Positions 28,553 through 34,635 of a stretch of DNA of 38,737 nucleotides are shown here, piece after piece (position 1 is the first letter of the stretch; every line of letters starts with the position of its first letter). This DNA is from Bacillota bacterium (lineage in GTDB: Bacteria; Bacillota; UBA994; UBA5500): contig JAKOXL010000017.1 of assembly GCA_029781045.1 (NCBI GenBank), positions 1-38,737 on the forward strand, written 5' to 3'. The translations under genes and the position numbers were made by a program. The notes beneath the pieces are model-generated. The model was not told the origin of the DNA. It worked only from the letters and a program-made list of their open reading frames with translations, and did no database searches.

Positions 28553-28765
28553 AATAAACAGGCCATCATCCCCAAAGGGACGAAAGGCCTGTGCTTCCGC
28601 GGTTCCACCCTTGTTGACCTGCCGCTGTCAGAGGCAAGCCCACCTTAATTATATGAGACTCCAGGGCGCCACTCTATCCCGCTTGCCGCCAGGCTTCCAC
28701 CATCCCCGGCTCGCTAGGGCAAGTTCTGTGGGCTAAAGCCTCCCCTTCCCCGTCTCCTATGTAGT
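28553..28765 (-). promoter_or_regulatory. Glycine T-box riboswitch leader
   Basis: The minus strand reads the T-box signature AAGGGTGGAACCGCGGAAGC at 28592-28611. Downstream lies an intrinsic terminator, ACAGGCC...GGCCTGT with inner TCCC/GGGA, ending in TTTATTTTT at 28553-28593. Upstream a long stem I includes AGCGAGCCGGGGATGGTGGAAGCC. The likely specifier is GGC (28668-28670), before GCCCTGGAGTC. Uncharged tRNA-Gly pairs with the specifier and the T-box bulge and favours readthrough into glyQS. Confidence 0.95.
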
Positions 28766-28775
28766 TATTGGCTAA

Positions 28776-28804
28776 ATATTAGCAGCCTGGGGGATCGAAG
28801 TCAA
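28776..28804 (-). promoter_or_regulatory. Sigma-A promoter of the glyQS leader
   Basis: TTGACT (28799-28804) and TAATAT (28776-28781) with exactly 17 bases between them, on the minus strand. It directs transcription into the T-box. Confidence 0.75.
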
Positions 28805-28816
28805 GGGCTAACGCTC

Positions 28817-30097
28817 TTACAGCTTGTACACACGAAAACCCACATCAAGGTCTGCTTCCTTATAGTGGGAGACCAGCAGGTCCCCAGCCCGCCGGATACG
28901 TTCTTTCCCGATTTCACTGATATTCGTATAGCCGGCCATATAAGCTGCACTACGCTTGCCGGTCGGCTCCGGCCATTGCACCATAATAAAACGGCGCCTG
29001 CTGCCGGTCTCGGCGTTGAGCTCCATCACCGCATGGGCTGTGGTGGCAGAACCAGAAAAGAAATCTAGAACTACTGCTTCGGGCCCGATACCGCTCATGA
29101 GTATAAGTCGCTTTATCAGTTCCACCGGCTTAGGATAGTCAAAAACCTTGCGGCCGAAGAGTTGCTTAAGTAAAGGCGCTCCGCTGCTCACCCCAATGTC
29201 ATCAATCCAAGTGGTGAACTTCTTGGTAGCAGGACCAGTGGCAGGTGCATAAACCTTCTCATAGGCCACGTAGCCGTGCTCGGTCTTGACGAACTCCACA
29301 TTACCCTTAGCCAGCTCCCTTTCCATGCGGGCCCGCCCCCAACGCCAACAGCCTTCTTCCGTAGGCGACAACATGGGGTAAACCGGTGTGTTGTCAGGTG
29401 CGAGAATGGGGTAATACAAGTTGGGTCGATCACTACGCCGACTATTAGCCCCCCACTTGCGCAGTAGCCGGGTTTTATAGTAACGCTGTTTTACCGGGTC
29501 AAACTTGGGGTAGATTTCACCTTGCTTGACCTGCTGGCCAGCTTGAAACTTAGACGTGTTCTTGGCATAACACAGGATGTACTCATGCACAGCAGCAAAA
29601 TGCCGACTGTCTTGGCGTCCTCCCCTACCCTTCCAACAAATCTGAGCCACAAAGTTCTGCTGGCCGAAGACTTCCTGGCCCAACAGGCGCAGGTTGACCA
29701 ATTCATTGTCATCGATACTGATGAAGATGACACCTTGCTCGCGCAGGAGCTGACGGGCAAGTTGCAAGCGCGGGAGCATCATTTGCCGCCAGTCATGGGA
29801 TTTTGGGAAGCTATCGTTATATACAAAACCCTTGCCCCTATTGTAAGGGGGATCAATGTAGATCATATCGATGGAGTTGGCATGGCTGGCCACGAGACGC
29901 TGCAAAACTGCCAGGTTGTCACCTTCCAGATAGAGATTGCGGGTGGTGTTCCACTCCTTACTCTCCTGTCGACAAGGCAAGAATACCTGCTCTAGAGAAT
30001 CTGGGCAGCCCAAAGAGGCGGGTTGTTTCCCCGCCCGACAAGCCCCCTTCTGTTCCGCAACTAACTCAGATCTCTCCATCCCATTTCCCAGCCTCAC
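28817..30097 (-). CDS. Orphan type III-like (beta-class) adenine DNA methyltransferase, shortened
   Basis: A 426-residue site-specific methyltransferase of the Mod type. NLYLEGDNLAVLQRL and MIYIDPPYNRGKGFVYNDSF (catalytic motif IV, DPPY) precede the SAM-binding motif I, VLDFFSGSATTAHAVMEL, the beta-class order for N6-adenine or N4-cytosine enzymes. WIDDIGVSSGAPLLKQLFGRKVFDYPKPVELIKRL is the typical Mod region before motif I. It ends at VGFRVYKL, where full Mod subunits usually continue for about 100 residues, and the N-terminus is short too. No Res helicase-nuclease gene is present, so it is orphan. It begins 17 bases after MntP, likely as one operon. The start (GTG 30097 or ATG 30079) is uncertain. 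Confidence 0.85.
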   Translation of the reverse strand: MRLGNGMERSELVAEQKGACRAGKQPASLGCPDSLEQVFLPCRQESKEWNTTRNLYLEGDNLAVLQRLVASHANSIDMIYIDPPYNRGKGFVYNDSFPKSHDWRQMMLPRLQLARQLLREQGVIFISIDDNELVNLRLLGQEVFGQQNFVAQICWKGRGGRQDSRHFAAVHEYILCYAKNTSKFQAGQQVKQGEIYPKFDPVKQRYYKTRLLRKWGANSRRSDRPNLYYPILAPDNTPVYPMLSPTEEGCWRWGRARMERELAKGNVEFVKTEHGYVAYEKVYAPATGPATKKFTTWIDDIGVSSGAPLLKQLFGRKVFDYPKPVELIKRLILMSGIGPEAVVLDFFSGSATTAHAVMELNAETGSRRRFIMVQWPEPTGKRSAAYMAGYTNISEIGKERIRRAGDLLVSHYKEADLDVGFRVYKL

Positions 30098-30114
30098 TTC
30101 TAGAGACTGCCTTG

Positions 30115-30744
30115 CTAACCAAAAAAGCCCAAATGCTCCGCCAAAATCTTAGAACCGATCAGAATCAACATGATGCCTCCGATCAACTCGGCCTTCGTCT
30201 TGACGCCGGAGCCAAATATGTTTCCTACCTTAACACCGAGCATAGACAAGGTGAAAGTGGTTGTCCCAATCAACACTACCGGCTGCAGAATACTTATTTG
30301 GAGGAAAGCCAACGATACCCCAACCGCTAGGGCATCGATGCTGGTGGCCACAGCCAGAGGTAACATGGCCCCCGGTTTGAGCGAAGCCTCCCGCCTCTCC
30401 GGACGCTTCCCACCGGGACACTCCCGATCCTTGCAGGTTCCGGCTGGACACTCTCGGTCGGGGCAACCTTCTCGATCAAAACTCTCGCCGATCATTCTCG
30501 CCCCCAGGAAAGCCAGTAAACCGAAGGCAATCCAGTGATCATAGGTGATAACATACCTGGCGAAACGGGTGGCTATTAAGTAGCCGACAAGCGGCATTAT
30601 AGCTTGAAAAACACCAAAGTACAGTCCCACTATGCTAGCCTTTCTCACAGTAACCTTTCGCATGGTCAACCCGGTACAGATCGCCACAGCTACCGCATCC
30701 ATCGAAAGCCCGACCGCGAGAGCAAGCGTTTCAAACAAACCCAT
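30115..30744 (-). CDS. mntP: MntP-type manganese efflux pump with Cys-repeat loop
   Basis: A 209-residue six-helix protein of the MntP family (exporter of Mn2+). Conserved membrane aspartates lie in GLSMDAVAVAI (Asp16) and TSIDALAVG (Asp137), and the two halves are homologous. It is longer than usual because of a charged cytoplasmic loop (residues 88-122) with four cysteines spaced exactly five apart (Cys94, 99, 104, 109; CPDRECPAGTCKDREC). This could sense or bind metal. ATG 30744 is chosen, with GGAGG about 10 bases upstream. It is first of a two-gene unit with the orphan methyltransferase. The promoter and a leader of about 110 bases are visible. Confidence 0.88.
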   Translation of the reverse strand: MGLFETLALAVGLSMDAVAVAICTGLTMRKVTVRKASIVGLYFGVFQAIMPLVGYLIATRFARYVITYDHWIAFGLLAFLGARMIGESFDREGCPDRECPAGTCKDRECPGGKRPERREASLKPGAMLPLAVATSIDALAVGVSLAFLQISILQPVVLIGTTTFTLSMLGVKVGNIFGSGVKTKAELIGGIMLILIGSKILAEHLGFFG

Positions 30745-30856
30745 TCGCCTATATCCTCCGTAGCAGCATGCAGTTAATGGGGCCGCATTTGAGCCCACCT
30801 CCATCGGTCGGGGCGGCTCAGCAACGGGTTCTAAACCGTCCAGGACAACCCATCGT
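30745..30856 (-). promoter_or_regulatory. Structured 5' leader of mntP, class unknown
   Basis: About 110 bases lie between the predicted start of transcription and the mntP ATG. Stems visible on the minus strand include TGAGCC/GGCTCA and ACGGTT/AACCCGT. I do not see the GGGGAGUAGC-type signature of the yybP-ykoY Mn riboswitch, so this is at most a candidate regulatory RNA. Confidence 0.35.
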
Positions 30857-30862
30857 ACAGGC

Positions 30863-30891
30863 AATATAACATAGAGCCTCGAGAGTGTCAA
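30863..30891 (-). promoter_or_regulatory. Sigma-A promoter of mntP
   Basis: A perfect TTGACA (30886-30891) and TATATT (30863-30868), 17 bases apart, on the minus strand. Confidence 0.8.
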
Positions 30892-32843: not shown

Positions 32844-33596
32844 TTACGGATAAATATACTCCTGTGGTGGCTTTTCCACTTTTCGTACCTGAAACACTTC
32901 CAAATAGGGCATTTCAATAACCGTCTTCTCGGCTCCGTTATAATAGGGCAGTTTTCCTATAGTACCGCGTACGGTGATCCACTGCCCCGGCACCAGGCTG
33001 TTGCGTTCCGGATAGCGGCATAGCAAGCCGGCCATTTGGGCATCGGCGGCACAGCAGGTCATTATTAGCCTAGCCAGAACAAAATCCTGAGGACCGAGGA
33101 CCGGATCAATGTAGACAAAGCCGAGCATCTCCACTTCTCGGCCCACGTACGTATCGGTGTTAGACCATAGGGCGTCCATGATACTGATGAAGTTTTCATC
33201 GTCTATGACGATGGTTTGGTCCTGGGCGAGGGCCGGTAAGGGCCGTTGCTCCTCATTTAGATTGGCAACAGGCCCCCTTAACACACCAAATAGCCCCTTC
33301 TGGCTAAGTATCTCTGGCGTAAGCATTTGCGGTGGGTACATCAATGCCAGGAGCAAGGGGAGCAAGAACAGTATATGCCCCCAGCTTATAGGACTATAGG
33401 TTTCAGAAGACCGGACCTGTCGCCAAGTGCTAACGCTTAGTAAGAGCAACATAACCACAGCAAGTGCTAAGGCCTTTTCCATGCGGGGATGTATGAACAA
33501 AGCCAGTTTCGAACTTAGGAAAAGGTAAAGAATACTCAGGGCGGCTAGGCCCAGCAGTAGGCTCCAGAGAAGAGCACCCGCATTTGCTCGTCGCAT
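32844..33596 (-). CDS. TIGR03943/DUF1980 (YcgQ-like) permease partner
   Basis: A 250-residue protein. Two N-terminal membrane segments (about residues 7-25 and 38-58) are followed by a third near 72-90 and an external domain: FISIMDALWSNTDTYVGREVEMLGFVYIDP and FVLARLIMTCCAADAQMAGLLCRYP, with the CCAADA motif of the YcgQ/DUF1980 family. ITVRGTIGKLPYY ends an OB-like fold. It always occurs with the DUF318 permease, here 16 bases upstream. Cysteines in CCAADAQ...LLC may bind metal. ATG 33596 (with GGGGGGGATGGAG before it) is preferred to one nine codons upstream. Its biochemical role is unknown. Confidence 0.85.
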   Translation of the reverse strand: MRRANAGALLWSLLLGLAALSILYLFLSSKLALFIHPRMEKALALAVVMLLLLSVSTWRQVRSSETYSPISWGHILFLLPLLLALMYPPQMLTPEILSQKGLFGVLRGPVANLNEEQRPLPALAQDQTIVIDDENFISIMDALWSNTDTYVGREVEMLGFVYIDPVLGPQDFVLARLIMTCCAADAQMAGLLCRYPERNSLVPGQWITVRGTIGKLPYYNGAEKTVIEMPYLEVFQVRKVEKPPQEYIYP

Positions 33597-33612
33597 GACT
33601 CCATCCCCCCCA

Positions 33613-34635
33613 TCAGAAGCCAAAGCAATTGGCCAGCAACCCTAGGGCAAGAACGGCTGCGAACGTGGTGGCAGCCAGCCGGCGCACGAAGGTGCCGGAA
33701 AAGGCATCGGTAAGTAGTAGAGTTCCTTTCAGGTCCAGCATGGGACCCAATACCAGAAAGGCCAAAATGGAACCTCCTGTGAAGTGACCGACAAAAGTAC
33801 GGGCGATGAAGGCGTCCGCTTCCGAACACAGGGAAAGCCCGTAGGCCAGAAACATAAGAGCAACAACGGAAAGCAGATTGCTTTGCCCAACAGCCGCCAA
33901 CCATTGACGTGGCAACAGGGTTTGCAGAGCCGCTGAGAGGGCGGCTCCAATGATCAGATAACGGCCTACACCAAAGAACTCTTCGCTAGTATGTTCCAGA
34001 AGACGTCTCACAGCGGTTAAGCCACCATTAGCTGGCGGTCTGTTGTGGCTGTGGCCGTGTTCCCACTCTTCCGTTTCATGGAAGCGAGTGTTCCGGGCCG
34101 GATAATGATCTTTGAGCCGCGATCCCAAGTAATCACCAACAAACACGGCTACTAGAAAACCGCAGAGGGCACGCAGCAGAACCACGCCCCAAGCTCCAGC
34201 GAAGGCGTAGTAGGTGGATGCCAGAACGATGGGATTAACAATGGGTACTGCCAGCAAGAAGGCCACTGCCATGCCTAATGGTACCCCTTTGCGCACTAAG
34301 CTACGAGTGATCGGAACTATGGCACATTCGCAGACAGGTACCAGAAAGCCCAGAAGGGCAGCGGCACAAATTCCCAGCTGGGGGTTCTTAGGCAGCATAT
34401 GAGCCACAGCATCCGCATTCAAATGCAGATGTACTAACGAAGAGATCAGTGCTCCCAACAACACAAAGGGCAGTGCCTCCAACAAGATACCGAGAAACAT
34501 CATGGTAAAACCCTGAAGGAAGCCGGCCCTCGCAGAGCCAATCCACACTAGGCCTGACCCCAGCAAAACTAGCATTAACAACACCCAAAACCCATTCCGG
34601 GTAACATGTAGAGCACGATCTTCTCTCAGCCGCAT
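33613..34635 (-). CDS. DUF318/UPF0718 (YcgR-like) permease
   Basis: A 340-residue permease with about eight helices. The family repeats are GILLEALPFVLLGALISSLVHLHL (first half), then LLGFLVPVCECAIVPITRSLVRKGVPLGMAVAFLLAVPIVNPIVL, where the conserved Cys pair VCEC sits, and SEADAFIARTFVGHF. A central loop has EEWEHGHSHNRP, a likely metal-binding His cluster. Relatives include ArsP and SO_0444-type metal exporters, so metal or metalloid efflux is plausible. The ATG has AAGGAGGGAGACC upstream. It precedes the DUF1980 partner, and is divergent from the Na/Pi cotransporter. Confidence 0.88.
   Translation of the reverse strand: MRLREDRALHVTRNGFWVLLMLVLLGSGLVWIGSARAGFLQGFTMMFLGILLEALPFVLLGALISSLVHLHLNADAVAHMLPKNPQLGICAAALLGFLVPVCECAIVPITRSLVRKGVPLGMAVAFLLAVPIVNPIVLASTYYAFAGAWGVVLLRALCGFLVAVFVGDYLGSRLKDHYPARNTRFHETEEWEHGHSHNRPPANGGLTAVRRLLEHTSEEFFGVGRYLIIGAALSAALQTLLPRQWLAAVGQSNLLSVVALMFLAYGLSLCSEADAFIARTFVGHFTGGSILAFLVLGPMLDLKGTLLLTDAFSGTFVRRLAATTFAAVLALGLLANCFGF

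Follow-up and report, generated by a model that had tools for sequence, protein, structure and literature searches.

A trimmed DNA methylase of type III descent, conserved in one Bacillota genus and adjoined in two of its three species by an MntP-family protein with a four-cysteine loop

The Mod subunit of the type III enzyme EcoP15I is composed of an N-terminal domain (NTD, residues 14-60), a methyltransferase core (62-262 and 390-516), a target-recognition domain (TRD, 263-384) and a C-terminal domain (CTD, 539-644); the NTD contributes to the dimer interface, and the CTD of ModA contacts Res extensively (PMC4490356). Orphan methylases of the same catalytic class, such as CcrM (6pbd) and M.BceJIV, have no restriction partner. 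As for manganese, the MntP/YebN exporters of Mn2+ are classified as TC 2.A.107 (PMC4608589) and are proteins of about 200 aa with 3+3 transmembrane helices (TM) and conserved Asp residues in TM1 and TM4.

The locus reported here lies in a stretch of 38,737 nucleotides (contig JAKOXL010000017.1 of the Bacillota assembly GCA_029781045.1), here referred to as the window, whose genome (G000) is 2.0 Mb in size and 100% complete. We compared the genus in three species, namely G000, its sister species G001 (locus L064) and a third species, G002 (locus L065), and also considered G003, which belongs to another genus of the family. The finding is a genus-conserved, Res-free and trimmed methylase derived from a type III system, here called short Mod, which a Cys-loop MntP adjoins in two of the three species. 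Both components belong to known kinds, and it is the variant form that is new. The probability that the whole account is correct, that is, a trimmed orphan methylase of type III descent in an operon with a Cys-loop exporter, is put at about 0.68. The features are listed in Table 1. The preliminary description had placed the pair at 28817-30891, a span that begins at the end of mod and extends upstream of the true mntP start.

Table 1. Positions of the mntP-mod features in the window
Feature	Position	Strand	Remarks
T-box-like leader of glyS	28573..28759	(-)	51.5 bits against a gathering score of 93; closes the mntP-mod unit; also in L064
mod, short Mod of beta-class N6-adenine type	28817..30079	(-)	no NTD or CTD; likely start ATG 30079, mechanical ORF from GTG 30097
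Motif I region DFFSG(SATT), AdoMet binding	29051..29065	(-)	residues 345-349 onward; intact, Mod alignment
TRD of Mod	29210..29545	(-)	residues 185-296; 71-85% identity within the genus
Motif IV, DPPY	29843..29854	(-)	residues 82-85; invariant among 16 Mods
mntP, six-helix Mn2+ exporter family (PF02659)	30115..30744	(-)	ATG 30744, stop 30115, 209 aa
Enlarged central loop of MntP	30376..30471	(-)	residues 92-123, TM3-TM4 interval; of low confidence or disordered in the model
C-x4-C-x4-C-x4-C, Cys94-Cys109	30418..30465	(-)	CPDRECPAGTCKDREC; conserved in L064 as CPDRECPAGNCRDRDC
Sigma-70-type promoter of mntP, TTGACA-17-TATATT	30863..30891	(-)	same boxes upstream of L064 mntP, with an 18-nt spacer

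The frame of mod spans 28817-30097 when read from the GTG and encodes 426 aa, or 420 aa from ATG 30079. The latter is the likelier start, because the stretch of 43 residues that it leaves before the conserved ESKxW aligns gaplessly with the L064 protein, and because GTGAGG can then be taken for a ribosome-binding site placed as in L064. The distance of 17 bases between mntP and mod given in the preliminary description thus holds for the GTG, but with the favoured ATG the gap is probably 35 bp; in L064 it is 18 bp. From either start the protein is indeed shortened, as had been claimed, since its nearest full-length relatives have about 600-640 aa.

The motifs of the window Mod follow the beta-class arrangement IV...TRD...X, I and include DPPY and an AdoMet motif. 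In its AlphaFold model, confidence is good from about residue 40 onward except in two loops, and Foldseek ranks the type III Mods 6k0w, 4zcf and 7dsu as its best matches, with CcrM and RsrI next. It is like the EcoP15I Mod (4zcf) in having DPPY before motif I, the TRD between motifs VIII and X, and the core fold. However, it lacks the dimer arm formed by the N-terminal domain of about 70 residues, a segment of about 30 residues after DPPY, the whole Res-holding CTD and a Res gene, and the same parts of the protein are missing from the short Mods of all three species. The alignment to EcoP15I runs from about residue 87 to 510 and the last residue of the protein corresponds to 510-512, ahead of the CTD, which puts the cut at the MTase/CTD boundary. 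The same endpoint, after GF(R)VxK, is found in a type III-like Mod of 461 aa (L162:4053-5438, on a contig that ends soon after the gene) and in the CTD-less PADLOC model PDLC03637 (513 aa, matched to 511/513); both differ from the window Mod in keeping the N-terminal domain. A CTD-less end is thus not unique to the short Mods. Nor is the NTD universal in type III Mods, because L071 and L073 contain Mods that lack it and lie next to a Res-like ORF.

The three short Mods group together in a single clade (100/100 support). Among full-length relatives with enough flanking sequence, most have a large helicase-like ORF alongside, which we read as Res, and this makes the type III ancestry clear. Although CcrM and M.BceJIV resemble the window Mod in catalytic class and in having no restriction partner, the window Mod differs from them in its type III TRD, and it matches the NCBIfam CcrM model weakly (34.7 of 830 bits). 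As a member of a type III system the short Mod fails on two of the features tested, Res and CTD. The best reading of the sequences is that the short Mod would be a genus-wide orphan methylase descended from a type III system. Its target base is probably m6A; since type III Mods making m4C can also bear DPPY (PMC8259958), this motif alone fits both and m4C is possible as well.

An orphan type III-like methyltransferase with no restriction partner had already been proposed, and both points are borne out in the window genome. A type III Res query against G000 returned nothing at E<=0.01, and the ResIII-domain proteins inspected there, judged by eye from their sequences, look like ordinary housekeeping helicases and motor ATPases, UvrB, PriA and Mfd among them. 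The methylases of G000 comprise one PF01555 protein, the window Mod, and zero PF02384 proteins. The absence of Res from the genome applies to G000, because in G001 and G002 a type III Res, or a fragment of one, lies on another contig; the Res of G001 adjoins a partial, CTD-bearing Mod of its own. The short Mod thus has no partner endonuclease in G000 and is conserved across the lineage, as is expected of an orphan methyltransferase. A viral origin was considered and rejected, since viral contigs encode no relative. Plasmid relatives of Mod are plentiful, all with less than 60% identity.

The target-recognition domain divides the relatives into two sets. In L066-L069, L071, L073 and L082 the TRD is shared at 53-63%, and in L075-L078, L080 and L087, where about half of the core is identical, it reaches merely 14-27%. 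From this split, the short Mods probably read the motif class of the first set. Full-length type III Mods of this kind, such as those of L066 (Bacillota), L068 (Chloroflexota) and L082 (Nomurabacteria), are 53-63% identical in TRD and core, but they possess both NTD and CTD, and those of L067, L068 and L082 have a helicase-like ORF, taken to be Res, nearby. An alternative account builds on this likeness and regards the short Mod as an immunity ("anti-restriction") methylase, which would pre-methylate the sites of type III systems with a shared TRD and so confer tolerance or resistance. The owners of the similar TRDs are spread over Bacillota, Chloroflexota, Patescibacteria and Bacteroidota, with a Res-like ORF beside most of them, and the much lower TRD identity of other Mods with a comparable core agrees with this account as well. 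However, the type III system of G001 apparently has a different TRD, as seen in its partial sequence, and there is no direct evidence of such attacks. We therefore regard the immunity role as unlikely.

The second component, MntP, matches PF02659 (Mntp) with 163.7 bits against a curated cut-off of 24.4 (E=3.5e-48, Pfam), and it scores 126.1 bits against the cut-off of 214 for the NCBIfam equivalog MntP (NF008546). Six TM are present with a conserved Asp in TM1 and TM4, and Asp16 and Asp137 of the SMDA/SIDA motifs are intact. No PDB structure matched at E<=0.001. In size, 3+3 topology and conserved Asp residues the protein is like MntP/YebN, but its central loop is about 20 residues longer and carries four Cys, and the gene is without a yybP-ykoY leader. 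From its family we infer that it exports Mn2+. To judge from their sequences, mntP and mod in the window both look functional.

Four cysteines exactly five residues apart in a loop longer than usual had been noticed from the window, and both observations hold. Cys94, Cys99, Cys104 and Cys109 follow one another at that spacing in the TM3-TM4 loop, and the loop-spanning segment has 58 residues versus 35-43 in most of the Bacillota relatives compared. From the Cys content of the window's long frames about 0.0005 such patterns would be expected, and one was observed. The proposed alignment of MntP orthologues had one orthologue available, that of L064 in the sister species, which retains all four Cys and their spacing with 3/4 Cys codons differing. 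Between the two loops, pS is 0.91 (saturated) and pN is 0.14. The retention of every Cys despite saturated synonymous change argues that the pattern is under selection, in a comparison of two sequences, just one other MntP being known with such a loop.

Shorter Cys-bearing central loops recur among Bacillota MntPs, often with one or two Cys together with acidic residues, and with three once and four once (L152, L133); the window loop seems to be an extreme version of this recurrent feature. The MntP of G152 (L098) is a second, unrelated-looking case, with a long Cys-rich central loop of six Cys (KKCSEDGNCKDCTNKECPRC...). It differs in Cys spacing and is 33-38% identical overall to the window MntP, and its loop was probably gained independently. 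A functionless origin may also be proposed for the four-Cys loop, namely the neutral repeat expansion of a short CP element common in MntP loops. Two ten-residue units, CPDRECPAGT/CKDRECPGGK, do resemble an internal duplication, and single CP elements occur in the loops of L106, L151 and L161. But neutrality sits poorly with four Cys and a spacing preserved in L064 while the synonymous sites of the loop became saturated, and we doubt this explanation.

The window loop contains 8 Lys/Arg, and the positive-inside rule makes a cytoplasmic position probable. The AlphaFold model has no confident fold within it. Metal binding or thiol-redox sensing would be plausible functions, and the metal sensor suggested in the preliminary description is possible as one among several roles.

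Across the genus the two genes behave differently. L064 has an adjacent mntP (74% identity) and short mod (74-75%), followed by a kinase-like gene, a T-box-like leader and glyS. L065 has a short mod (65-67% identity) at the same locus between a serine hydrolase and glyS, with a beta-eliminating lyase gene after it; mntP was found neither in the 139 bp upstream of this mod nor elsewhere in the 86%-complete genome of G002. In G003 neither mntP nor short mod was found. Hence mod is the part that stays constant, with mntP as a variable neighbour, and the conservation of the mntP-mod neighbourhood extends to the sister species but not to G002. Several other features of the neighbourhood were recorded. 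The interval between mod and glyS is a spot of gene turnover, empty in the window (28560-28816) and occupied in L064:6906-7748 by an APH(3')-like kinase, below the curated cut-off, and in L065:7306-8799 by the beta-eliminating lyase. The T-box-like leader of glyS is structurally complete, yet it was missed by the Rfam gathering search of the window. At 32847-34635 of the window, an ArsP_1-family permease and then a DUF1980 protein lie beside a Na+/Pi cotransporter with PhoU domains, and this neighbourhood is also kept in L065.

The interval between mntP and mod showed no terminator-like site. Together with the promoter and the gaps of 18-35 bp, this makes co-transcription of mntP and mod likely in two species. 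The search for a yybP-ykoY Mn riboswitch (RF00080) upstream of mntP found none, in a weak test where 9/14 control genomes gave any match and 2/14 a passing one. The 5' leader of the window mntP folds no better than shuffles (z=0.39). In L064, a 16-bp terminator-like hairpin with a U run lies downstream of the mntP promoter (L064:4880-4914; surrounding fold z=-5.4), which is absent from the window's leader; attenuation by this hairpin is possible.

The suggested co-expression of Mn export and DNA methylation is thus upheld as far as adjacency and a shared, conserved promoter in two species go, but a functional coupling is not. A stronger version would make the two a single module, in which Mn stress induces the operon and methylation switches a metal/oxidative-stress regulon. 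Apart from the adjacency, the common orientation and the promoter conserved in two species, the evidence speaks against it: the third species has mod without mntP, genes upstream of glyS turn over (kinase-like in L064, beta-eliminating lyase in L065), and the weak riboswitch test gave nothing. As mod stands alone in that third species, methylation is independent of mntP. At present a joint function lacks support, and the single module appears quite improbable.

Mod itself is under purifying selection within the genus (pN 0.15-0.22, pS 0.77-0.84 and saturated, pN/pS about 0.2-0.26). Its TRD is no less conserved than the core (71-85%), internal stops are absent and all catalytic motifs are intact. 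Selection, motifs, TRD and the single clade together argue for a working gene rather than debris, and a pseudogene was rejected on the first two. That the short Mod is a decaying, inactive remnant of a type III system after loss of Res and both ends is very improbable: two domains and Res are indeed missing, and the first 45 or so residues (14-33% identity) are modelled with low confidence, but the same short form recurs in three species under this strong selection and a CTD-less Mod is also known to PADLOC.

We therefore return to the trimmed orphan methylase beside a Cys-loop exporter. Mod has retained its catalytic core and TRD, lost the N-terminal dimerisation domain, and shed cleanly at the domain boundary the CTD by which the EcoP15I Mod holds Res. 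It would most likely act as a solitary core-dimer beta-class enzyme, as do CcrM, RsrI and MboIIA, methylating adenine at an asymmetric site. In place of restriction, its role may be to set housekeeping or epigenetic marks or to guard against incoming type III systems of equal specificity. In the window species and its sister, the mntP promoter probably drives mod as well, the two genes forming an mntP-mod operon. The cytoplasmic loop of MntP would have been lengthened into a four-Cys element, probably binding a soft or transition metal or answering thiol redox, and this element most likely tunes the exporter itself and not the methylase. A highly speculative extension, to which we give very little weight, is that this Res-free, genus-wide writer marks one strand of asymmetric sites, so that one daughter is unmarked after replication, with the dose set by the operon of a metal- or redox-gated Mn exporter.

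The short Mod clearly exemplifies a restriction-modification subunit that shed exactly its partner-recruiting module and was then kept by selection. The function of an orphan methylase becomes testable in a lineage where the window Mod is the sole PF01555 methylase found, and, given the shared TRD, full-length relatives are predicted to reveal its motif. If its cysteines bind metal, the Cys-loop MntP would widen the known ways of regulating Mn exporters.
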